A stretch of 64,000 nucleotides of DNA from a virus. The position numbers were made by a program, and so were the translations under genes. Below are positions 435-55,317 of the stretch, piece after piece (the stretch's first letter is position 1; the number at the start of each line of letters is the position of its first letter). The stretch spans positions 1 to 64,000 of IMG/VR virus record IMGVR_UViG_3300007276_000045, one strand, 5' to 3'. The notes under the pieces were generated by a model that searched no databases, was not told the origin of the DNA, and was given only the letters and a program-made list of their open reading frames with translations.

Positions 435-897
435 GTAAATCCTTAATAGCTACGTTATAACAATTAGCCTTGACCCTGAAACCGTTAGCAGGATCAATCT
501 TTCCTTTCTTCATGAATCGGGCGTTGTCGAAATACTCTTCCTTCTTCATCTCTCCCAAGATCCAACCTTTAGACAGATCAGATAATACTCGGACAAATAT
601 ATACTTGTCACAGTTCTGCTTTGTGTTGAAAGCGGCCACTGAACAATCATAGTCTGGTTTTGGCGTTACTGTAGTACGTTTTGTTTTTACATCTACAGTC
701 TTACCCTCTGGGGTACGGAGGTCATAGTCGTAGGTGCTGTCAGTGGAGTAGCCTAGCTCCTCTCGGACTAAGATTTCCCCCAAACAGCCTGCTAGATTAC
801 CAGCACCCTTCTCAATAGAGTTTTTTAACTTACCAATTTCCATAGCACACTTCCTCGCTTCGAGGAGCATGTCATCCGTAATAGTTACTTCGATCAT
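421..897 (-). CDS. PD-(D/E)XK nuclease-like protein
   Basis: A 158-residue protein between the DNA polymerase and ThyX. The pattern GCLGEILVREELG (Glu about 41), then YDYDLRTPEGKTVDVKTKR (Asp about 59, Asp69-Val-Lys71), is the helix-strand-strand core of PD-(D/E)XK endonuclease-fold proteins. Family knowledge would allow a structure-specific or repair nuclease, but the exact substrate cannot be read. The start at 897 overlaps the polymerase end (872) by 26 nt, and the end overlaps the thyX start, so it belongs to the replication cluster. The fold assignment is moderately sure; the role is inference. Confidence 0.6.
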   Translation of the reverse strand: MIEVTITDDMLLEARKCAMEIGKLKNSIEKGAGNLAGCLGEILVREELGYSTDSTYDYDLRTPEGKTVDVKTKRTTVTPKPDYDCSVAAFNTKQNCDKYIFVRVLSDLSKGWILGEMKKEEYFDNARFMKKGKIDPANGFRVKANCYNVAIKDLHECK

Positions 898-2005
898 TTA
901 GATAGTCCTTAATTTCTTCTAGGTTTTGTGGGCTTCCATTAACATATTCGACATCAACTCCGTCACCGAAAGAGAAGCCTACTTCAGCGTCGATCTTCAA
1001 GGGTACGTCAAAGTGAATATTAAAGTTCTCTTTGATGAAAGGATAATCAACAAGCTGGGTGTGAACTACTTCCAAACATTCTTTGATGTGGTCCTTGTGG
1101 CAGATCAACTCAATACTATCGTGTACCGTAGCGCACACTCTCGCGTCGATCCCCCTTTCATTTAGAACCTTCTCTGTGCCGAGCAGACCACAAAGTAGAA
1201 TGTCGGAGGCAGTTGATTGGATAGTAAAGTTTAGCCCTTGCCTAGCCGCACGGTTAACCACCGAAAAATCTTTTGAACCAATATCAGGTAGATTGCGGCG
1301 ACGGCCAAAGATAGTGTAAGCATATTTGTTTTCCTTGATGAACTTCTCAACGAAGTCCATGTATTCGAAGATGGCGGGGTACACATTTTGATAGTTTGCA
1401 ATAATCTTCTTGGCTTTACCTACGGTAATACCCGTGGTCTCTGCCAAGTTAAAGGCACCGCCACCGTAGGCGATTAAGAAGGAGATAGCCTTTGCAATCT
1501 GGCGTTCATCTTTTGAGATCTCCTGCTTGTTGAACAATAGGCGAGCGGTGTAGGTGTGCAAGTCAGCACCTTCAGAGAAGGCTTTTTGCATGTTCCCATC
1601 CTTCGCAATGTGTGCTAGGACTCTTAGCTCCATGGCTGCGTAGTCAACCGTGATGAAGCAATAGTCTTCTGGGCAGTTGAAGAGGCTGCGGATATTATTA
1701 TCCGTATCTCTTGGTAGGGTGTGGAAAGATACACCCATAGCTTTCTGCGCGTTATATGCAGCACAAGAAAGGCGACCAGTAGCAGTGCCATCAAATCGAT
1801 AATCTACATAGACTCGATTAATGTCATTGTATTCAATTGCCTTCTTAGTCCCTTCGATATAGGTCTTGGTTAGCTTCTGCGACTTGCGAAGACCTAGGAG
1901 ACCCTTAATGAACCTTTGCGAATTTATTAGATCCTCGGTTGATTTTCCTTGCAGGACAGACTGGCTGATCCTCTTACCTTCATCTCTGTGATCCCACTTA
2001 CCCAC
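872..2005 (-). CDS. polA: Family A DNA polymerase, palm/fingers piece (third part of a split gene)
   Basis: 377 residues carrying the polymerase domain of a Pol I-type enzyme. TATGRLS (about 74-80) precedes motif A, VDYAAMELRVLAH (Asp about 121). Motif B is RQIAKAISFLIAYG, with Phe at the position equivalent to E. coli Phe762. Motif C is TVHDSIEL, so Ser replaces the usual Glu of HDE. There is no exonuclease or thumb in this ORF; those lie in the two ORFs just upstream. Translation must begin at GTG (2005), because an in-frame TAA lies only six bases before it. A GAGGAG Shine-Dalgarno site at 2016-2021 precedes it at about 10 nt. It overlaps the previous ORF by 8 nt in another frame. The polymerase identity is near certain. 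Confidence 0.93.
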   Translation of the reverse strand: MGKWDHRDEGKRISQSVLQGKSTEDLINSQRFIKGLLGLRKSQKLTKTYIEGTKKAIEYNDINRVYVDYRFDGTATGRLSCAAYNAQKAMGVSFHTLPRDTDNNIRSLFNCPEDYCFITVDYAAMELRVLAHIAKDGNMQKAFSEGADLHTYTARLLFNKQEISKDERQIAKAISFLIAYGGGAFNLAETTGITVGKAKKIIANYQNVYPAIFEYMDFVEKFIKENKYAYTIFGRRRNLPDIGSKDFSVVNRAARQGLNFTIQSTASDILLCGLLGTEKVLNERGIDARVCATVHDSIELICHKDHIKECLEVVHTQLVDYPFIKENFNIHFDVPLKIDAEVGFSFGDGVDVEYVNGSPQNLEEIKDYLNDRSNYYG

Positions 2006-2477
2006 GCTTATTTAGCTCCTCTTCGATGTGTTCCAGTAGTAGTTTAAGCGTAGGAGCAGACACGGAAGGTGTGCCCTTGGCTGTTCGGTCAGGAGGGTAC
2101 ATCTCGAACGCACCTTCACGGGTATATAATATCTCGATCAGGTCGTTATTTGAAGAGATGTTGTCAGAAGTCTGAACCTGCTTGAATGAGTAGAGATTAT
2201 CCTCCTCTTCAATATTAGCCACGCGGAGGTGGCGACCGACAGAATCTAGTTTCTCCTCACACACCTGCATCCCTTCATACTCCATATTAGAGAAGGTCTC
2301 AAGAGACGGCATGATGAGGGTATTAATAATCTTAGACATACCTAGATCTTCAAGCTTCTCTTGTATTAGATTGTAAAGCTTTAGAGTGAAGTATGTGTCC
2401 GCTGCGTTACCTTCACAGCAGTCGGACAGATCCATGTTTGCCCAGTCAAAGGTCTTAGGGTTCTTAATTGTAAGCAT
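1998..2477 (-). CDS. Family A DNA polymerase, Exo III/thumb piece (second part of a split gene)
   Basis: 159 residues that fill the gap between the exonuclease and palm of a Pol I enzyme. GNAADTYFTLKLY (about 23-35) is the third exonuclease motif region, with Asp27 aligned to the metal-binding Asp. SLETFSNMEYEGMQV is the thumb start, and PSVSAPTLKLLLEHI is the strand-helix before the palm. The YxxxD tyrosine is replaced by Gly23. The start forms a TAATG overlap with the upstream ORF, and a GGAG site lies 8 nt before the ATG. On its own this ORF could not be an enzyme, so it must assemble with its neighbours or be joined to them by frameshifting. Confidence 0.8.
   Translation of the reverse strand: MLTIKNPKTFDWANMDLSDCCEGNAADTYFTLKLYNLIQEKLEDLGMSKIINTLIMPSLETFSNMEYEGMQVCEEKLDSVGRHLRVANIEEEDNLYSFKQVQTSDNISSNNDLIEILYTREGAFEMYPPDRTAKGTPSVSAPTLKLLLEHIEEELNKRG
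2016..2021 (-). promoter_or_regulatory. Shine-Dalgarno site for the polymerase palm ORF
   Basis: GAGGAG on the minus strand ends 10 nt before the GTG at 2005. It lies inside the preceding ORF and supports independent initiation of the palm piece rather than a sequencing frameshift. Confidence 0.6.
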
Positions 2478-3490
2478 TACAGGTTCTCCAGTTCGTCTGC
2501 GAAGTATAGTTTTACTAGATCCATAAGGCTCTTAGGTGCATTCTCATTGATGAGGTGGTGTGCGATCTTAGTGTCCCAAACATTCGTAACCTTGACACGG
2601 TGATTAATGAGGAACTTAAGATCAAACTTTGCGTTATGGAAAATCTTAATGTTGTTAGGGTTCGAGAGGATCTTTCGCACCGCATCCCAAGCCACATGTT
2701 TCTCTAGGAACGGTGAGTCTTTGTGATCAAGAGGAACAACCCAATTCTGATCTCCACAAGAAAACGCAATGGACATTACGCGATCTCTCCTAAAGTTCAG
2801 ACCTGTGGTTTCAATATCAGATGCTACAGGCTCCTTAGTGGAGCCTAGCTTCTCAACTAGCGATACAAGTTCTTCTTCCTCGGAGATAACCTCATAGGAG
2901 AAGTTCCCTTGGTTCTCTTTGCCAAGTACATATTTTTCATATGCATTTTTGATGTCTGTTTCGAAGAGGTATCTGTGTCGAGGCTCTTTAAGTACAGCAA
3001 AAGGATGGTAAATAGGAACAACGATGCAAGAGTGCCCAGAATTAGTAGAGTATTCATATGATGATCCACGCTTATTCATAATGCCGCTTTTCTTAATTAA
3101 CATTTTCATAGCTAAGTTGCCACAAGCAAGAACAAGGCGCGGCTTCACCTTGTCAATTGTAGCCTCTAAGTGCTGTCTACATAACACCATATTACTAGGT
3201 GTCATATCTGCCTCCTTCACAGAAGGACATTTTACTGAAGAGGAGAACGTAAGATTGTCGCCGGGGTAAATCGACTTCAATAACTCGCGCTCCTTTTTGG
3301 AGAATACTTCTAGTACCCCAAACTTACTGCGGAAGGAATCTCCCAAAACCAGAACGTCTGATTGGGAAAGTTCCTCGTAATCCATGTGGGCATACTCAGG
3401 CTTACTCTGTTGTAGTATTGTGCATCCATCACACAGTTCGTTACTGCAACTGGACTTAAGTCCTGAGTATAAGTTTTGTAGGTCGCTCAT
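2477..3490 (-). CDS. UDG-like domain plus 3'-5' exonuclease domain (first part of a split DNA polymerase)
   Basis: 337 residues in two domains. Residues 1-190 resemble a family 4 uracil-DNA glycosylase: Cys20/Cys23 (CxxC), Cys88 and Cys104 with 15 residues between them (the Fe-S ligand spacing), VLACGNLAMK, and YHPFAVL. The active-site loop is degraded to LGDSFRSKFG. Residues 195-337 form the proofreading domain, with Exo I SDIETTGL (Asp225, Glu227) and Exo II FHNAKFDLKFL (Asp290); Exo III is in the next ORF. The same UDG-exo-pol order is known from the single-chain polymerase of phage SPO1. The start codon lies 6 nt after the TATAAT core of a CTATAATAG promoter, with no Shine-Dalgarno site. 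Confidence 0.85.
   Translation of the reverse strand: MSDLQNLYSGLKSSCSNELCDGCTILQQSKPEYAHMDYEELSQSDVLVLGDSFRSKFGVLEVFSKKERELLKSIYPGDNLTFSSSVKCPSVKEADMTPSNMVLCRQHLEATIDKVKPRLVLACGNLAMKMLIKKSGIMNKRGSSYEYSTNSGHSCIVVPIYHPFAVLKEPRHRYLFETDIKNAYEKYVLGKENQGNFSYEVISEEEELVSLVEKLGSTKEPVASDIETTGLNFRRDRVMSIAFSCGDQNWVVPLDHKDSPFLEKHVAWDAVRKILSNPNNIKIFHNAKFDLKFLINHRVKVTNVWDTKIAHHLINENAPKSLMDLVKLYFADELENL
2486..2489 (-). promoter_or_regulatory. Shine-Dalgarno site for the Exo III/thumb ORF
   Basis: GGAG on the minus strand lies 8 nt before the ATG at 2477, inside the last codons of the UDG-exonuclease ORF. With the TAATG overlap it points to translational coupling. Confidence 0.6.
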
Positions 3491-3494
3491 CCGT

Positions 3495-3503
3495 CTATTA
3501 TAG
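3495..3503. promoter_or_regulatory. Divergent CTATTATAG promoter element
   Basis: CTATTATAG on the plus strand is CTATAATAG on the minus strand. It is the only AT-rich box in the 16-nt gap between two divergent genes. On minus, TATAAT ends 6 nt before the ATG at 3490; on plus, TATTAT ends 5 nt before the ATG at 3507. Neither gene has a Shine-Dalgarno site here, so both transcripts would be leaderless if the usual box-to-start distance applies. Confidence 0.55.
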
Positions 3504-3506
3504 ATT

Positions 3507-3863
3507 ATGGGGAAAAAAGTACATTACATAGATAACAAAAGATTTGAAGAAATTATCCCCCTCTACCTACGAAACCCTGAGGCTTACGAGGATGAGTTGA
3601 TGGGACTGTTCGATCTATTGATCACGAATATTATAGGAAGCTTCAAGTTTAATATCGACAAAGAGGACGCAAAACAAGAATGTTTCTTGCTGGTCCTAAA
3701 GACGTTGAAGAATTTCAAACCGTCTAAAGGATCTGCCTTTAACTATTTTACGACCGTCATTGTCAACAACCTCAAACTTCTATACACGAAGAATAAGAGG
3801 TATGAAAACAAACTCTCCGAGTATGGAGATATACTGGGTGATCAGAGACCCAGTTGCTTATAG
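3507..3863 (+). CDS. gp55-like sigma factor for late transcription (sigma-70 region 2-like)
   Basis: 118 residues. The core (about 45-105) has KEDAKQECFLLVLKTLKNF followed by KGSAFNYFTTVIVNNLK and a basic helix, LLYTKNKRYENK. This matches sigma-70 region 2 helices as kept in phage gp55 late sigma factors: an acidic-aromatic core-polymerase binding helix, then the NAFxYFTxxI-type -10 recognition helix. T4 gp55 is longer (185 aa), so this is a short form. Its likely role is directing the host RNA polymerase to short -10-type late promoters, which fits the recurring CTAT(A/T)ATAG elements in this window. Its 3' end overlaps a convergent gene by 22 nt. A generic sigma-like protein is the alternative. 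Confidence 0.65.
   Translation: MGKKVHYIDNKRFEEIIPLYLRNPEAYEDELMGLFDLLITNIIGSFKFNIDKEDAKQECFLLVLKTLKNFKPSKGSAFNYFTTVIVNNLKLLYTKNKRYENKLSEYGDILGDQRPSCL
3834..3853. terminator. Possible hairpin at a convergent gene junction
   Basis: CTGGGT and ACCCAG flank an 8-nt loop at the overlap of the gp55-like gene (+) and the 108-aa gene (-). The stem is 6 bp and no U-tract follows on either strand, so termination is only a possibility. Confidence 0.25.
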
Positions 3864-5081: not shown

Positions 5082-7593
5082 GCTTTTCTAATAGCTCTCT
5101 CTGACCTTTGAGGAAGGTTATAAACAACTCTTCTTCCTCAGCACTCTTATCTTCGGACAATACATTTCGATGACCAGACTTTGTACCCATAGTCCACTTC
5201 TGGTTACCTCTTGCAGTGTCACAAGAAACTAAGGTGTCCCCGGTCTTCCTATCTACTAGTTTGATGGTTCCCCCTCCTCCGTATTCGAAGTAGGCTTTAT
5301 TGTCTTTGATCTTTTGCAGGTTATCTTCCACAACAGCATTGTTTAGATACACACTTTGGTAACTATCACCCAACCCTCTAGTGACCCTTAAGGTCTCCTC
5401 CATACTTCCAGCAGCTTGGCTGTAGCACATTGTTGCCCAAGACTTCCACCCTTCATCCGTTACTTCGCCTTGTGGCATTTCTTGTTTTAGAACTTCTTGC
5501 TGAATATCCTGCTTCACTTTTGCCAGCGCATCCAAATCTTCCTTAGTAGCGTTAGGTCTCATAGCCCTCTTAGCTGCTTCAGCCCTTTCTTTATTTTTAG
5601 GACTCTGCTGCTTCTTCTCAAACCAAGTGTTGATCCAAGCGTCAGACATCTCTGGAGTAACTCCCAATGATCCGGGAGTTAGTAATCTATCGAACTCCGC
5701 AGTCTTCTCATCAATCTCTTTTTGTTTAGCGCAGCCAGCTTTTTGAGTTCCTGCTCCCGCACAGGAATTTAATCTTTTTGAGTTACGCTTTGCAAAGTCC
5801 TTTGTGCCTTGAGTCATGCCACCCGGTACATCACTGCCAACAGTTGCATTACCGCAAATAGCTTGGGTTCTACTACTTGATATCTCACCCACACCCCCCT
5901 TACTTTTTGAATCGGTAAGAGTTTTTAGCTCTACCTCCATGACGCAACCCCCTCCTTCGGTTGGAGTCAGCATGTTTTTAACTCCAGAACCTTCTCCCCC
6001 ACAACCATTCTTAGGGGTTCCTCCAAGCTTCTTTTCATAAGAAGCAGCAACCTTGTCACAGTCCTTATCAAACTCGAACTTAAGATCAGCTTTTGCCCCA
6101 GAATCGGTCATGTTTTTGTCCCCTTCGTGGGTAACCTTGGTTGGGATAAGATCTGGATCGTCACCGAAAAGCTGCTTGTCAAAGGTTTGGTTAACGAATG
6201 AAGTAACAAGGATAGACATCATGAGTTGCCTATCCGATGGCGTAGATGCCTGTTCAATGAAAGCCTCAGCCTTCTTTTCGTCCATCCCCATCTCCTCAGT
6301 TAGCACTCGCTGACATTCAATAACAAATTGGGCATCCTCGTAAGCGGCTTCCCCTTTTGCTAAAAGCTCCCCTAGCGCAACCGACCTACCTACAGAAAAA
6401 GTTTCCATCATTTGATCGTAGCTGCCATCACTAAGTGCATCTTCATAAGTATCGGAGATACTTTGCCGCATTTCATGGAGAGCCTTCTTCTTCTCTGCAC
6501 CAGTCTCAGCTTGGGCGAACTTCGCTTGCCCCCTCATGATGTTCGCAGAGATGGTCATGAATTTCTCTGCTACTGGACCACGGTAAGACTCATTTACACC
6601 CCCTGTTTTCGCAGGAGATTCAGGAGGTTTTGCGACAGGAATTTTATACTTTCTCTGATCCTCATCTGGTAGATTCTCTAGTTGTTTGTTATACCTCTCA
6701 GCTTCGTTATTAAGCTGATCAACCATATTCCTAAGAGCATCATTTTTTGGAGAAGACTTCTCTCTAAACTGGAATCCGATGCCCCTAATAAGAACACCCC
6801 CGCGAGTAATAGTAATAGACTCAAGAAGCTTGCCTAGTTTCTTAGCTTCGGCCTCACTCATAGGCTCTTCACTACCTGCTCTTCCCCGTAACTGCCTGAT
6901 AGATAAGTCAATTTGTTGAAGACCTTCTAGTGCTCCAAGCTTTTCTTCTGGGGAAAGCTTATCTGAATTAAACACTTGCTGCTCTAACCTTTCAACGTCC
7001 CCGAAAAAACCTTTGGTCTGTCCTGCGGCTACGTTTGCAAGGGAATCAATACCTCTACCTCTCTTCTCTTCCAGACCGGGTGTGATACCTGCCATTTGTG
7101 CAAGCTCTCTAAAAGAGGTTACTACTTTCTCTGTTAGGTCTTGTACTTGCTTGATCATAGCCAAGCCTTGATCATCTCCACCTTCGCCTTCTTGCCCCTC
7201 TTCACCAGTGTCGCCTTGGTCCTTGGTGTCGCCTTCTTCCTCACCACCACCTGCCCATGCTTTCACTAATTTGTTAGCATTACTATTTTCTTTTTGCCAA
7301 GAAGTAGCCAAGCTTCCGATCTGAGAGCCACTAAGTTTAATTCCCCAACCTGAGAGATTGCTTCCAGTAACACTAACACCTTTTCCTTTGGTTACTTCAA
7401 CACTTAAATTTTTACCGTTACCTAAGCCCTCTTCTTTATGGCCCTCTTCTTCATTACGAATTCGGCCTAATTCAGTAGCTACATCGTTTGCTACCGAAGC
7501 TAGATCAGCCGCTTCTTCCTCACGCAAAGAGAGTCTAAATTTTCTGCGCTTTAACTGTTCGTAATTTTCTAAGAGTGAGTAGTAGTAATCCAT
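5047..7593 (-). CDS. Large protein of unknown function, possibly a virion or ejected protein
   Basis: 848 residues, unrecognised. The N-terminal 25 residues are basic (YEQLKRRKFRLSLREEEAA). Residues 100-145 are an acidic Gly/Glu run. Long helical stretches rich in Glu/Lys/Gln follow, and a region of about residues 515-640 holds several Cys in Gly-rich sequence (GCGGEGSG, GGGCVME, AICGNA, NSCAGAG, KAGCAKQ). No signal peptide or transmembrane segment is evident. It lies just after the tail tube gene but behind a strong terminator and under its own CTATAATAG promoter, so it is expressed as a separate unit. Size and position suggest an internal or structural protein; that is inference. Confidence 0.75.
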   Translation of the reverse strand: MDYYYSLLENYEQLKRRKFRLSLREEEAADLASVANDVATELGRIRNEEEGHKEEGLGNGKNLSVEVTKGKGVSVTGSNLSGWGIKLSGSQIGSLATSWQKENSNANKLVKAWAGGGEEEGDTKDQGDTGEEGQEGEGGDDQGLAMIKQVQDLTEKVVTSFRELAQMAGITPGLEEKRGRGIDSLANVAAGQTKGFFGDVERLEQQVFNSDKLSPEEKLGALEGLQQIDLSIRQLRGRAGSEEPMSEAEAKKLGKLLESITITRGGVLIRGIGFQFREKSSPKNDALRNMVDQLNNEAERYNKQLENLPDEDQRKYKIPVAKPPESPAKTGGVNESYRGPVAEKFMTISANIMRGQAKFAQAETGAEKKKALHEMRQSISDTYEDALSDGSYDQMMETFSVGRSVALGELLAKGEAAYEDAQFVIECQRVLTEEMGMDEKKAEAFIEQASTPSDRQLMMSILVTSFVNQTFDKQLFGDDPDLIPTKVTHEGDKNMTDSGAKADLKFEFDKDCDKVAASYEKKLGGTPKNGCGGEGSGVKNMLTPTEGGGCVMEVELKTLTDSKSKGGVGEISSSRTQAICGNATVGSDVPGGMTQGTKDFAKRNSKRLNSCAGAGTQKAGCAKQKEIDEKTAEFDRLLTPGSLGVTPEMSDAWINTWFEKKQQSPKNKERAEAAKRAMRPNATKEDLDALAKVKQDIQQEVLKQEMPQGEVTDEGWKSWATMCYSQAAGSMEETLRVTRGLGDSYQSVYLNNAVVEDNLQKIKDNKAYFEYGGGGTIKLVDRKTGDTLVSCDTARGNQKWTMGTKSGHRNVLSEDKSAEEEELFITFLKGQRELLEKLMHQTNNGPST

Positions 7594-18134: not shown

Positions 18135-20891
18135 TTATTTATATAGCCTACCTAAGAATTCGGTAGGAAAGTATCTTGCGTTGTTAAGTGCAGTGCTTTG
18201 CACTTTATTTGTTAGAGGAGTTCCAGTTAACCTATCTGCTGTTAAGAATGTTTTTTCTAAATCCTGTAGTTCCACAGGCTCCACCTTAATGTTATTATAG
18301 CTGCCTGCGAATAGGTTAGATATAATAGTTCCGGGAACAAACTCAAAAAACTCAGCAACCTCTGCGGCAGTCATGTTAAAGAATACATCTGGCTGAAGAA
18401 TTCGTTTTCCTCTAGCCCCATCTTCAATATTATAATTATCGTCGATAGCCTTAACTCTAGAAAAGACTTCAGCTAGTGGAGATTTAATAGTTGTAAAACT
18501 TGTTTCTGTTCCATGCAGAGTAGAAGCTTCTCCAACCACGGATTCCCTAGCTGCATACTCAAATGCATAGTTATCTTCCTTAAGGGAAGGTGCTTTACCA
18601 TTCGCAGTCTTTGCTGACTGAACATAGTTTTCTTGGGCGACAGATTGCAAGGGGTTGTTTACAATACGCATGGTTCTAACTGAGTGTTGTCCCTCGACAA
18701 AGGTCTCAAGAGTAGATCTTCCTTGGTAGGGGGAATACTTGATTAGATTTGTTGGGTAGATCGCAAAGTCTGTATAAATTTTCCTAGCAAAAACCTTACC
18801 ATCTAAAGCTCTAGTAAAGTCCGTCATCTTTAGCTGAACTGTATTCTTCTCCAGCAAGTAGTTCCAAATAGGATCTCGATAATCAATATAGATTGACATC
18901 CTCGGTCCTGACCAAGAAGACACCGTTGCATTAAAGTTTTCGTAGTTATTCCCATTGGTAATGGAGTCCCAAGCTAACTCATAGTCTACAGTGGTATTGG
19001 TAAAATCTATGTCACCAGCAGCTTCTGTTCTAATAGTTTCTCTAGTGGACGAGAAGAGCATAACGGAAGGGATAGCCGAACCCTCGCCAGAAACCTCGAC
19101 GCTACCACTACCTCCATAAGTTAGGGAGCTAACGACTAACTCTGGTTCGTATGTTCGGATCATCGTCTCCTGTTGAGGTGGGATAACAAAAGCCTTGTCT
19201 CTGTTTGAGACGAGACTTACAGTTTCAATGGTAGAGTCTGCCTTCCTTACTTTAACAAACTCATTTAACTGATAAACAGAGGAGGTATTTGTGCCAGCAT
19301 CAGTAATACCTCTAACTGTAATCCCGTCATCATCTCTAACCCGAACACCTGTTAGCTTACCACTTTTTGTTTTTACCGAGACAGTAAGATCAATATCGGT
19401 AGGCATAGCACGCCATCTTTGGATCTCACGCTTCCTATCCCCATTCGAGTATTGACCAGTGAAGATAGACGCTGGTTGGCTATTTCTTACGATTGAGTAC
19501 TTAAGTCTAGATCCTGTATCGGTAAAGCCCTTGGGCATTTCAGGAACACCGTAGGGAAAGAAGGTCTTACCCGCTTTAATAATCTCATCTAAAACTTCTT
19601 GGTTATAACCACTTACAGTACCTAAAATAGTTGCTCGCCTAATAGCAGCAGTTAAAAGACCCTTACCGTCTTTTGAAGACACATTAAACTTACTAGCCTC
19701 TTCAAGCCGCTCTCTAGCAGAGTCTTTAAGGGACTCTGGAATGGCTTGTTGGTTATAAAGAACAGTGGATATACCGATACCACTAAAGGGAGTATTACCT
19801 CTAAGTACATCTCCTACCGCAACATTAATTTTATCTCTAAGCACTCCTTCGTTAGAGAAGACAGGGTTACCTGCTTCATTACGGGCGTAAGATAAAAGAG
19901 TTTGGTTTGTGGAAATCAGTAGGTTATGCTCTGGGTCAAATACTTCATCCTCTGTTGGGTATAACGGGAAGTTAGATACGTTATCTCCTGTCGCAGTTGC
20001 TTGTGGAGGAAGGTTTGCATTAGTATTACCGCTATTGATAACCTGTCCAACTATAGGATCTTGAGAGGTAGTAGTATTCCCAAAAGCGGGTGTATTGCTA
20101 CCTATTGCTACATTTCCCGGAGATACAGGAGTTCCTCCATTTTCACCACCATCAACTTCTTGCACATCCCCAGCAGATATACCCCCTCCCGGTTCTGTTA
20201 CATGACAGTAGGTGATACTCCACATCACCTTAGCAGTTTTGCAGGTCTTATTCCCGCACCCCCCAGAGCCACCACAGGTATGGTTCCCAGATAACACAGT
20301 CTTTTGATTTGTAGGCTGAGACGGGTTTCCAAATTGATCAGTTGCCCCATCTGGGGCCGCAGGAGGTTGATAAGTATCTTCGGGTCGAGGAGGTCGTTGA
20401 GTTCTAAGTTTGCAAGTATACGTCCAAGTAGCTACATATCTGCGTATCTTATAGCAAGGTCCACCACCACTAAGAGGCGAGTCGGTAAATGTAATCGTGG
20501 GGGTATTACTATCAGGTACACAATAACATGCAGCACCACCAGTAGTAGGGCCTTGGCCTCCACCGCCCTGACCACCCATTTGGCTCATCTGCCCTCCTCC
20601 CGGAAAAACAGGACCGGGGTGTGGAGGAATAGAAAAATCCATCTGGCCCATTTGACCCATCTGGCCTCCCATTTGCCCACCTCCATTATGGGAGATTGGG
20701 TCCATCATGCCAATGTTCATCTGACCCATCTGACCCATCTGACCCATTTGCCCACCGGGAGGTGCAGGTAGACGGTGACATACTCCCCCTACTGCGGGAG
20801 GAACTTCATTCATCTGACCACCGCCTTGACCACCCGGAGGGTCTTGGATCGGTGTATCTTCGCAATCACATTGGCTCAGATCCTGAGGCAT
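18135..20891 (-). CDS. Large virion protein with GQM-repeat N-terminus
   Basis: 918 residues, not recognised. Residues 20-135 are Gly/Pro-rich with many GQM/GQMGQM units (GGQMGQMGQMGQMN). Residues 138-230 are Cys-containing and Pro-rich. The remainder (330-918) reads as folded beta/alpha sequence with no membrane segment, including DIDLTVSVKTKSGKLTGVRVRDDDG and MSIYIDYRDPIWNYLLEKNT. It is translated in the baseplate/fibre operon between a related large protein and the PAAR tip, so a baseplate-peripheral or fibre role is likely by context. Confidence 0.7.
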   Translation of the reverse strand: MPQDLSQCDCEDTPIQDPPGGQGGGQMNEVPPAVGGVCHRLPAPPGGQMGQMGQMGQMNIGMMDPISHNGGGQMGGQMGQMGQMDFSIPPHPGPVFPGGGQMSQMGGQGGGGQGPTTGGAACYCVPDSNTPTITFTDSPLSGGGPCYKIRRYVATWTYTCKLRTQRPPRPEDTYQPPAAPDGATDQFGNPSQPTNQKTVLSGNHTCGGSGGCGNKTCKTAKVMWSITYCHVTEPGGGISAGDVQEVDGGENGGTPVSPGNVAIGSNTPAFGNTTTSQDPIVGQVINSGNTNANLPPQATATGDNVSNFPLYPTEDEVFDPEHNLLISTNQTLLSYARNEAGNPVFSNEGVLRDKINVAVGDVLRGNTPFSGIGISTVLYNQQAIPESLKDSARERLEEASKFNVSSKDGKGLLTAAIRRATILGTVSGYNQEVLDEIIKAGKTFFPYGVPEMPKGFTDTGSRLKYSIVRNSQPASIFTGQYSNGDRKREIQRWRAMPTDIDLTVSVKTKSGKLTGVRVRDDDGITVRGITDAGTNTSSVYQLNEFVKVRKADSTIETVSLVSNRDKAFVIPPQQETMIRTYEPELVVSSLTYGGSGSVEVSGEGSAIPSVMLFSSTRETIRTEAAGDIDFTNTTVDYELAWDSITNGNNYENFNATVSSWSGPRMSIYIDYRDPIWNYLLEKNTVQLKMTDFTRALDGKVFARKIYTDFAIYPTNLIKYSPYQGRSTLETFVEGQHSVRTMRIVNNPLQSVAQENYVQSAKTANGKAPSLKEDNYAFEYAARESVVGEASTLHGTETSFTTIKSPLAEVFSRVKAIDDNYNIEDGARGKRILQPDVFFNMTAAEVAEFFEFVPGTIISNLFAGSYNNIKVEPVELQDLEKTFLTADRLTGTPLTNKVQSTALNNARYFPTEFLGRLYK
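18136..18143 (-). promoter_or_regulatory. Possible TATAAATA late-type promoter
   Basis: TATAAATA on the minus strand is identical to the T4 late promoter box and lies 2 nt before the PAAR ATG. It overlaps the last codons and stop of the upstream gene, so it may be chance in coding sequence. Usage is uncertain. Confidence 0.3.
20572..20815 (-). repeat. GQM-coding tandem repeats
   Basis: Reiterated 9-nt units reading Gly-Gln-Met on the minus strand (seen on plus as catctgacc/catttggcc), grouped in three blocks inside the 918-aa gene. The repetition is visible at both DNA and protein level. Confidence 0.8.
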
Positions 20892-53144: not shown

Positions 53145-53383
53145 TTACCCTCAGCGATTCCGGGAATCTTAATATTTGGGTTCTCCATTTTAAGCCTAAG
53201 CCCCCAGTTCTCCATGTCCCGCACGGTCCACTGATCTTCAAGCTTCTGCTCTAATGTGTCGAGCTTATAATTAATGTTAGTAAGCTGAGTGCTTATCCAG
53301 ACTACACCTCCACAGAGGGCAATCACCATGCCCAGTGGCATTAGAGTCTCTTTCGAGAGTGTAAGTGTTTTTGTTTTTTCCAT
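53141..53383 (-). CDS. Small membrane protein with one TM segment (80 aa)
   Basis: 80 residues: a polar N-terminus, a TM segment LMPLGMVIALCGGVVWISTQL (about 14-34), then a helix NINYKLDTLEQKLEDQWTVRDMENW with heptad character. No lipobox or signal-peptidase motif. The layout resembles small phage membrane proteins placed near lysis or fibre genes, but there is no evidence of holin function. It overlaps the collagen-like gene stop by 1 nt and ends the minus-strand terminase-to-fibre unit. Confidence 0.6.
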   Translation of the reverse strand: MEKTKTLTLSKETLMPLGMVIALCGGVVWISTQLTNINYKLDTLEQKLEDQWTVRDMENWGLRLKMENPNIKIPGIAEGN

Positions 53384-55317
53384 TATGCTATTCTGACGAT
53401 ACTCACGGTGGTACCAGATTTAAACGCGCAATTCCCTGTACTGGCTGTAGCGGTAAATTCGATGTCCCACGAAGTTCTACCTACTTGTCCTACCCACTCT
53501 AGTGTCATACATTGAGGTGAAATAACCGAGTAACTGTTATTAGCGATAGTATGCTTAGTACTACCATTAATATCTAGATCAATAGTAACAGTAGGGTTGA
53601 CAGCACTGTTTGAAACTATCGCACACAGTAGAACTCTGTAGACTCCAGTCCCTGTGCCAACTCGCCATGCTGCCGGAGTTGAACCATCTGGGTCTTTGGT
53701 AAACGTCAAGAAGGTGTCATCACCTGCTGCTGCGCCAGTTGGGATACTCTTTACTGTAGCCGTATCCCCGTCAGAAGATAAACCTTGTCCTAGATTGGAG
53801 ATTGTTGCGTTATTTGAATCGCCAAGGAATCTAGTCCATAGGAACTCCCCATGCATGTGTGGAGCAGCCCAGTTTTCAGAAATAGTGGCTACAGTACCAT
53901 CATAATCAACAGTGCCAGTCGTGGAATAGGATAAAGGAGCATTAGTATCAATAGCCACACCTGAGAGATTAATACTTTTAGCAAAGTTACCCACTCCAGA
54001 CACGTTCAAGCCAGCGTTAGTCTTTAGTCCAGCGGTAGTAACGATCCCTCTAAAAGTTGCAGCAATCGAATTAAACTGGTTGGAGGGAACATCTCCACTA
54101 TCTTCAGGGTCAGCATCGCCAGCAAAGTATGTAATGGGCAGACCTGTAACATCTAAGATAGTGTTATCACTCTTTCTAATCTTGTCTGCTGCAATATGCC
54201 CAGACCCAGTAGCGGCAAGAGTTTGCCCTGAAATAAAGAGAAGAGTTACGGGACTATTTCCATCACTACCTTCAATAAAGTTGCCATCACTACCAAATAC
54301 ACCTTGCGAAAAATCGAACTCGGCACCGACTTGATCACCCGGAGTAACGATTCCAAGAGCAACATCATTCATAGGTCTCAACCCGTAGGATGAACCCTCT
54401 GCGTTCGGCATGAATTTAAATACTTGTCCACCTCTAGGGTTAGGGCCTGTAAATTTAAACTCTCCTGTTAGGTTAGTGGGCATGGAAAGTCCAGCAACGA
54501 CAATCCTATCCTTTGGACCCGCATCTCCCTGAGCACCTTGAGTACCTTGAGCACCCTGAGAACCAGTATCACCAACAACCTTACCTAGCTCCTCAAGTAA
54601 AGTACTACCATCTGGCTTAATGAAGTCCACAAAAAGACTAGGACCAGAGATCCTCGCCCTAGTAAACCCTGATCCTGCTGAACCAGCCGCGCCATCATTT
54701 CCATTAGATCCATTATCACCAACAACCTTACCTAGCTCTTCAAGTAAAGTACTACCATCGGGTTTAATGAAGTCCACAAAAAGACTAGGACCAACGATCC
54801 TCGCCCTAGTATACCCTGATCCTGCTGATCCGTCAGACCCGTTAGTACCGTTAGATCCATTATCACCAACAACCTTACCTAGCTCTTCAAGTAAAGTACT
54901 ACCATCGGGCTTAATGAAGTCCACAAAAAGGCTCGGGCCAACGATCCTCGCCCTAGTATACCCTGATCCTGCTGAACCATCCGAACCATCCGAACCATTA
55001 GATCCATTATCACCAACAACCTTACCTAGCTCTTCGAGTAAAGTACTACCATCTGGCTTAATGAAGTCCACAAAAAGGGTTGGACCCAAGATCTGCGCCC
55101 TAGTATACCCTGATCCTGCTGATCCGTCAGACCCGTTAGTACCCGCTGGCCCTTGTGGGCCTTGTGGGCCTTGTGGGCCTTGAGCACCCGCGCCACCTGA
55201 GCCTCCCGAATACATCCCACAAATGGGAGCACAGATCTCGTCCCCTGCGGGTAGCTCCTCGAAGATAATCTGCCCGTTAGCGTCAGTCCCTAATACAAGA
55301 GGTATGCGATCTGCCAC
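53383..55317 (-). CDS. Collagen-like repeat tail fibre/appendage protein
   Basis: 644 residues. The N-terminus, LVLGTDANGQIIFEELPAGD, is a short docking-like segment. Then come Gly-x-y triplets (GPQGPQGPQGPAG), four 49-residue repeats each with YTRARIVGPSLFVDFIKPDG, TLLEELGKVVGD and a Gly/Ser/Asp triplet stretch, and a GAQGTQGAQGDAG block. The C-terminal 370 residues are globular beta-rich sequence. Collagen triplets in phage fibres trimerise. This is likely a trimeric fibre binding a host surface. It follows the acidic head-region gene with a 3-nt gap. Confidence 0.85.
   Translation of the reverse strand: MADRIPLVLGTDANGQIIFEELPAGDEICAPICGMYSGGSGGAGAQGPQGPQGPQGPAGTNGSDGSAGSGYTRAQILGPTLFVDFIKPDGSTLLEELGKVVGDNGSNGSDGSDGSAGSGYTRARIVGPSLFVDFIKPDGSTLLEELGKVVGDNGSNGTNGSDGSAGSGYTRARIVGPSLFVDFIKPDGSTLLEELGKVVGDNGSNGNDGAAGSAGSGFTRARISGPSLFVDFIKPDGSTLLEELGKVVGDTGSQGAQGTQGAQGDAGPKDRIVVAGLSMPTNLTGEFKFTGPNPRGGQVFKFMPNAEGSSYGLRPMNDVALGIVTPGDQVGAEFDFSQGVFGSDGNFIEGSDGNSPVTLLFISGQTLAATGSGHIAADKIRKSDNTILDVTGLPITYFAGDADPEDSGDVPSNQFNSIAATFRGIVTTAGLKTNAGLNVSGVGNFAKSINLSGVAIDTNAPLSYSTTGTVDYDGTVATISENWAAPHMHGEFLWTRFLGDSNNATISNLGQGLSSDGDTATVKSIPTGAAAGDDTFLTFTKDPDGSTPAAWRVGTGTGVYRVLLCAIVSNSAVNPTVTIDLDINGSTKHTIANNSYSVISPQCMTLEWVGQVGRTSWDIEFTATASTGNCAFKSGTTVSIVRIA
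54571..55145 (-). repeat. Four tandem 147-bp repeats in the fibre gene
   Basis: The sequence accaacaaccttacctagct (plus strand) begins at 54571, 54718, 54865 and 55012, exactly 147 bp apart, coding 49-residue units. Units 2-4 are nearly identical; unit 1 is slightly diverged. Copy number is likely to vary by recombination. Confidence 0.9.

Follow-up and report, generated by a model that had tools for sequence, protein, structure and literature searches.

A family A DNA polymerase divided among three separate genes in a broad group of uncultured phages

The window analysed here is a stretch of 64,000 nucleotides of viral DNA (positions 1 to 64,000 of IMG/VR record IMGVR_UViG_3300007276_000045). 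Three consecutive genes lie on its minus strand: A (positions 2477-3490, 337 aa, ATG start), B (1998-2477, 159 aa, ATG start) and C (872-2005, 377 aa, GTG start). Gene A encodes a UDG-like domain followed by a 3'-5' exonuclease with motifs Exo I and Exo II. Gene B encodes the end of the exonuclease, including Exo III Asp27, and the first half of the thumb, and gene C the second half of the thumb, the palm and the fingers. In textbooks, family A polymerases are enzymes of one chain.

Gene A is matched by the Pfam families PF03167 (UDG, 1e-7) and PF01612 (3'-5' exonuclease, 2.4e-22, model positions 1-129 of 173). Exo I is formed by D225 and E227 and Exo II by N286 and D290, with the catalytic residues kept in 43/43 relatives aligned, the set to which all invariance counts given here refer. 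Four cysteines, Cys20, Cys23, Cys88 and Cys104, are also invariant (43/43) and match the 4Fe-4S ligand pattern of family 4 UDG, from which cluster binding is predicted. The fold resembles family 4 UDG both by Foldseek (4zby, 1.5e-6) and by sequence profile (4zbx, 7.4e-14). The AlphaFold2 model of A is good except for low-confidence final residues, and matches the Klenow exonuclease as well as family 4 UDG; its best Foldseek match is the phiLo family A polymerase (PDB 9qhs, 329 columns). His162-Pro163 is retained in the UDG-like domain. The family 4 catalytic motif 1 is absent, and S/A/G-D-S is found at positions 50-52, which we take to be the place of this GEAPG-type motif. With its cysteine pattern kept and its first catalytic motif altered, the domain may serve as an Fe-S domain for structure or DNA binding. 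SPO1 gp31 lacks at least two of the four cysteine ligands, both covered by its alignment to A.

No domain above threshold was found in B by the Pfam search, and annotation of the kind that gives names to A and C can be expected to miss this middle piece. A profile built from 43 members of B matches the Klenow chain at 161-294 (E 4.6e-9), corresponding to the exonuclease end and the thumb. Exo III D27 is invariant (43/43); together with D225, E227 and D290 of A, it completes the set of DEDD exonuclease carboxylates, three of which lie in A and one in B in 43/43 relatives. The tyrosine of the Exo III YxxxD motif, seen in SPO1 as YLADD, is replaced by Gly23 in 43/43, suggesting that the proofreading chemistry may have changed in this clade. 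Modelled alone, B gave no confident compact fold (pLDDT 78.7, pTM 0.42), and Foldseek comparison of this model with structures gave no significant match. Such a poor lone fold is what a fragment dependent on partners would be expected to give, though it is no proof of partners. In a single relative (L126, 8583-8994), gene B is broken by a frame change, either a sequence error or decay.

Gene C belongs to DNA_pol_A (PF00476, 1.1e-76) and matches Bst Pol I at 7e-41. Motif A (D121-E126), motif B (R168-K172-F176-Y180) and motif C (H295-D296) can all be recognized, and the residues D121, R168, K172, Y180, H295 and D296 are invariant (43/43), identifying C as a family A polymerase.

The earlier note on this DNA, made from the sequence alone, had described three open reading frames carrying a complete chain of UDG-like domain, exonuclease, thumb and palm, and the coordinates were confirmed in the sequence and the order by Pfam, by the PHROG model phrog_17 and by alignment to SPO1 gp31. 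On phrog_17 the pieces occupy positions 481-785 (A), 794-926 (B) and 931-1257 (C), in order and without overlap or loss. According to profiles of the three proteins, residues 75-329 of A correspond to 63-338 of gp31, residues 27-148 of B to 379-542, and C from residue 26 onward to 541 onward. As the three proteins cover successive stretches of gp31, no part has been lost or repeated; the only extra residues are about 11 at the end of B and about 25 at the start of C. The Klenow and gp31 alignments also bear out the claim that the cuts fall within the exonuclease and the thumb: cut 1 separates Exo II from Exo III, and cut 2 falls within the thumb at about 294-300 of the Klenow chain. The label "SPO1-like" holds for the architecture. 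It does not extend further, as identity is only about 25% for A and 33% for C, the virion is T4-like, and the SPO1 polymerase is a single chain after splicing.

The two junctions are as tight as had been noted. At the A/B junction (2474-2489, minus strand), GGAG at 2486-2489 and an 8-nt spacer precede a TAATG stop/start overlap of 1 nt; at the B/C junction (1998-2021, minus strand), GAGGAG at 2016-2021 is separated by a 10-nt spacer from the GTG, and the genes overlap by 8 nt (GTGGGTAA). The presence of these Shine-Dalgarno sites had been offered as an argument against random sequencing errors, which stands for one junction and is weak for the other. At B/C, the GAA-GAG-GAG codons are clearly biased against an overall GAG share of about 56%, with 33 GAA and no GAG at -8, 35 GAG at -7, and GAG for 39 of the 45 Glu at -6. 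At A/B, the TTG-GAG codons are about equally common where B is far from A, so that selection for a Shine-Dalgarno site is unsupported there and the site says little. In the divergent intergenic stretch upstream of A (3491-3506), TATAAT-like boxes are found on both strands, a few bases from the start codon of A on one side and from that of the ORF at 3507 on the other. The box upstream of A is conserved in relatives as CTATAATAG-N-ATG, and where B is set apart from A, mostly a TATATAG-type box (TATATAG-N2-ATG) stands just before its ATG. Only about 2-6 nt separate these promoter-like boxes from the start codons, which suggests near-leaderless transcripts for A and for separated B.

When each of the three genes was used to scan IMG/VR, 88 non-identical loci with C were obtained, of which 81, some of them close to each other, span all three genes. 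All 81 spanning loci have three separate frames, far more than chance would give, and no fused A-B or B-C frame was found among them; a single-chain family A polymerase is thus encoded in none. Identity to the window falls to about 41-50% among the relatives, and A, B and C are all under purifying selection (dN/dS 0.01-0.15 where dS is unsaturated). The split is a stable inherited trait of a large and broad group of uncultured, mostly marine-looking phages, and is not peculiar to the phage of the window. Among GenBank phages, no relative above 60% identity was found. When viral and genome sequences were scanned for an unsplit sister, every hit was either a split relative or a very distant protein, the search patterns being derived from the clade, such that closer unsplit relatives could escape them; two genome-scan hits (L240 and L241) were set aside as distant bacterial proteins. 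The single-cell genome Prochlorococcus sp. AG-409-P03 includes one relative of 130,604 bases (L239, QCKN01000003.1); the sorted cell may be the host, or virus and cell may have been sorted together. The gene psbA, a sign of a cyanobacterial host, was present in 0 of 10 records, and a cyanobacterial host is unsupported on that ground.

The arrangement of the three genes varies among the relatives. A and B touch in 47 of the 81 loci, with an offset of -1 in 44, and are apart in the other 34, where spacers of 0.15-2.4 kb carry unrelated genes: a glycosyltransferase 2 family gene, a 2OG-Fe(II) oxygenase, a 91-aa probable membrane protein and genes on the opposite strand. The B/C overlap is 8 nt in 50 loci and takes other offsets or frames elsewhere (-1, -4, -23 and others). 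In one relative (L043), B and C are separated by an intact ORF of about 200 aa (about 5400-5998); an ORF related to it lies directly upstream of C in another (L041, 1-460). The linkage of B to C is nearly always retained among spanning loci. On a tree of C, a quick tree with many weak forks, at least 16 changes between joined and separate A and B can be counted, with C intact throughout. The insertion of unrelated genes at A/B in 34 of 81 loci and at B/C in L043 demonstrates that both junctions are true gene boundaries.

A single PolA match was found per record in 8/8 records. No PolB (PF00136) was detected in these 8 records, nor Pol III alpha in the 4 records searched for it; since most records are fragments, a further replicase may have escaped notice. 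Two relatives of about 130 kb carry one PolA and neither PolB nor Pol III alpha. PCNA_C, a sign of a clamp, had no match in 3 records. The portal, capsid (MCP), terminase and sheath genes of the window (within 8292-60556) are T4-like, and a UvsW-like helicase lies in the same region. Judged from these genes, a T4-like virion together with a family A polymerase appears to be an unusual combination. Additionally, the ORF at 53383-55317 contains collagen-like GPQGPQGPQ repeats and is perhaps a fibre, and the ORF at 18135-20891 contains GGQMGQMGQ repeats.

Very probably, each of the three genes is translated on its own, and the proteins A, B and C join non-covalently to form one family A replicase. 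A would supply most of the exonuclease together with the UDG-like domain, which bears the cysteines of a 4Fe-4S cluster; B would complete the exonuclease active site with the fourth carboxylate and begin the thumb; and C would supply the remaining thumb, the palm and the fingers. In the window, one message would serve all three genes, with B translated through the stop/start overlap after A, and C through the overlap after B. In the relatives, A and B-C could occupy separate transcription units. The claim of the earlier note that the pieces must act together is supported; translation of all three, the assembly itself, polymerase and proofreading activity, and the role of main replicase are what we infer. 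Non-covalent assembly into an active polymerase has a precedent in phage 25, whose split gp43A and gp43B co-purify and have polymerase activity (PMC2988022).

That a sequencing or assembly error interrupts one continuous polA is already refuted by the conservation of the split, and its probability is practically nil. Errors or decay do occur, as the disrupted B of L126 indicates; however, in 81/81 loci, drawn from numerous metagenomes and a single-cell genome, both cuts fall at the same places, and other genes sit at the cuts. It is very unlikely that the ribosome makes one protein by crossing the overlaps through programmed frameshifting or recoding. The overlaps of the window are short (-1 and -8 nt) and could be crossed in principle, but B-C offsets of -8, -1, -4, -23 and others would demand different frame changes in each lineage, and no frameshift can bridge the intervening 0.15-2.4 kb that keeps A and B apart in 34 loci. 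Rejoining of exons by group I introns, or of proteins by split inteins, is extremely improbable. The polA genes of phage K, which has three exons, and of SPO1 are indeed interrupted by introns with endonuclease ORFs. Nevertheless, the junctions in the window overlap with nothing intron-like between the pieces, and the introns of K and SPO1 are placed elsewhere than the present cuts, namely at Exo II and in the interval from the TGRLS motif to motif A. An Rfam search found no intron, but as the known phage K introns were likewise missed at the gathering threshold, this result does not weigh against introns. As for inteins, the extra termini of about 11 and 25 aa relative to SPO1 leave no room for intein halves, such lengths being too short for a complete intein pair. 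Frozen intron sites were also considered as the origin of the cuts and rejected, since the positions differ from those of phage K, SPO1 and MEP401. Error, frameshifting, introns and inteins do not account for the inserted genes, the varied B-C offsets and the changes in A/B linkage taken together.

The pieces might no longer form one enzyme, with C acting as a lone exonuclease-free polymerase and A and B in other roles. The repeated changes of A-B linkage and the loss of the Exo III tyrosine would fit this explanation. Yet B comprises half a thumb and one of four exonuclease carboxylates, so that neither it nor A amounts to a whole enzyme of any known type, the DEDD residues on the two sides of the A/B cut show no variation, and B-C linkage is almost always kept; separate roles are accordingly considered quite unlikely. 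A functional adaptation may also be imagined, in which A is a detachable, separately expressed subunit docking on a B-C core, so that proofreading or DNA-damage sensing could be switched during infection. This would account for the repeated placement of A in a transcription unit apart from B-C, and is regarded as doubtful. With assembly of the three products into one replicase, an exonuclease site and a thumb would each be divided between proteins in a deeply stable manner, implying that the fold would tolerate two permanent breaks in a replicase. For the engineering of split polymerases, the cuts would also offer natural points of division, and the persistence of fragmented replicases becomes testable.

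Among known systems, the polymerases of SPO1 (gp31) and other Herelleviridae share the UDG-like, exonuclease and polymerase parts and are collinear over the full length, but are single polypeptides with group I introns at other places and 25-33% identity. The phiLo polymerase (PDB 9qhs) was likewise solved as one chain, of 1142 residues, and the pieces of the three-piece phage K polA are exons. Flavobacterium phage immuto (MW353176) also combines a T4-like virion with a family A polymerase; its polymerase is, however, a single 777-aa chain, only distantly similar and without a UDG-like domain. Rhodothermus phage RM378 resembles the present phages in its T4-like (far-T4) virion and separate exonuclease subunit gene. 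It had been cited in the earlier note as a case of split Pol A, which is not correct: its exonuclease subunit p024 is of family B (PF03104, 2.6e-14), and the gene described as similar to DNA polymerase I encodes a 5'-3' exonuclease (PF02739). The trio p012, p025 and p024 was also rejected as a three-part homologue, p012 being the 5'-3' exonuclease, p025 having no family match and p024 being the family B exonuclease. The expectation that a three-way split would be new agrees with the literature searched, outside which most subscription papers lie: no earlier report of a three-way family A split was found in it. Two-way splits of phage polymerases are already known. In OM43 phage MEP401 and most of its relatives, a family A polymerase is encoded in two ORFs with a small ORF between them, for which the authors considered an intron (PMC10580990). 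That polymerase resembles ours in being family A and in separate ORFs; it differs in having two pieces, the break falling after the TGRLS motif and before motif A, in a region that C keeps whole, and nothing in it was seen to match the UDG-like part of A. In the T4-type phages 25 and 44RR, the gp43A/gp43B split is linked to a homing endonuclease or an untranslated spacer (PMC2988022). These phages share with the present group a T4-type virion and a replicase in separate polypeptides, but their polymerase is of family B and in two pieces, whereas the one described here is of family A and in three.
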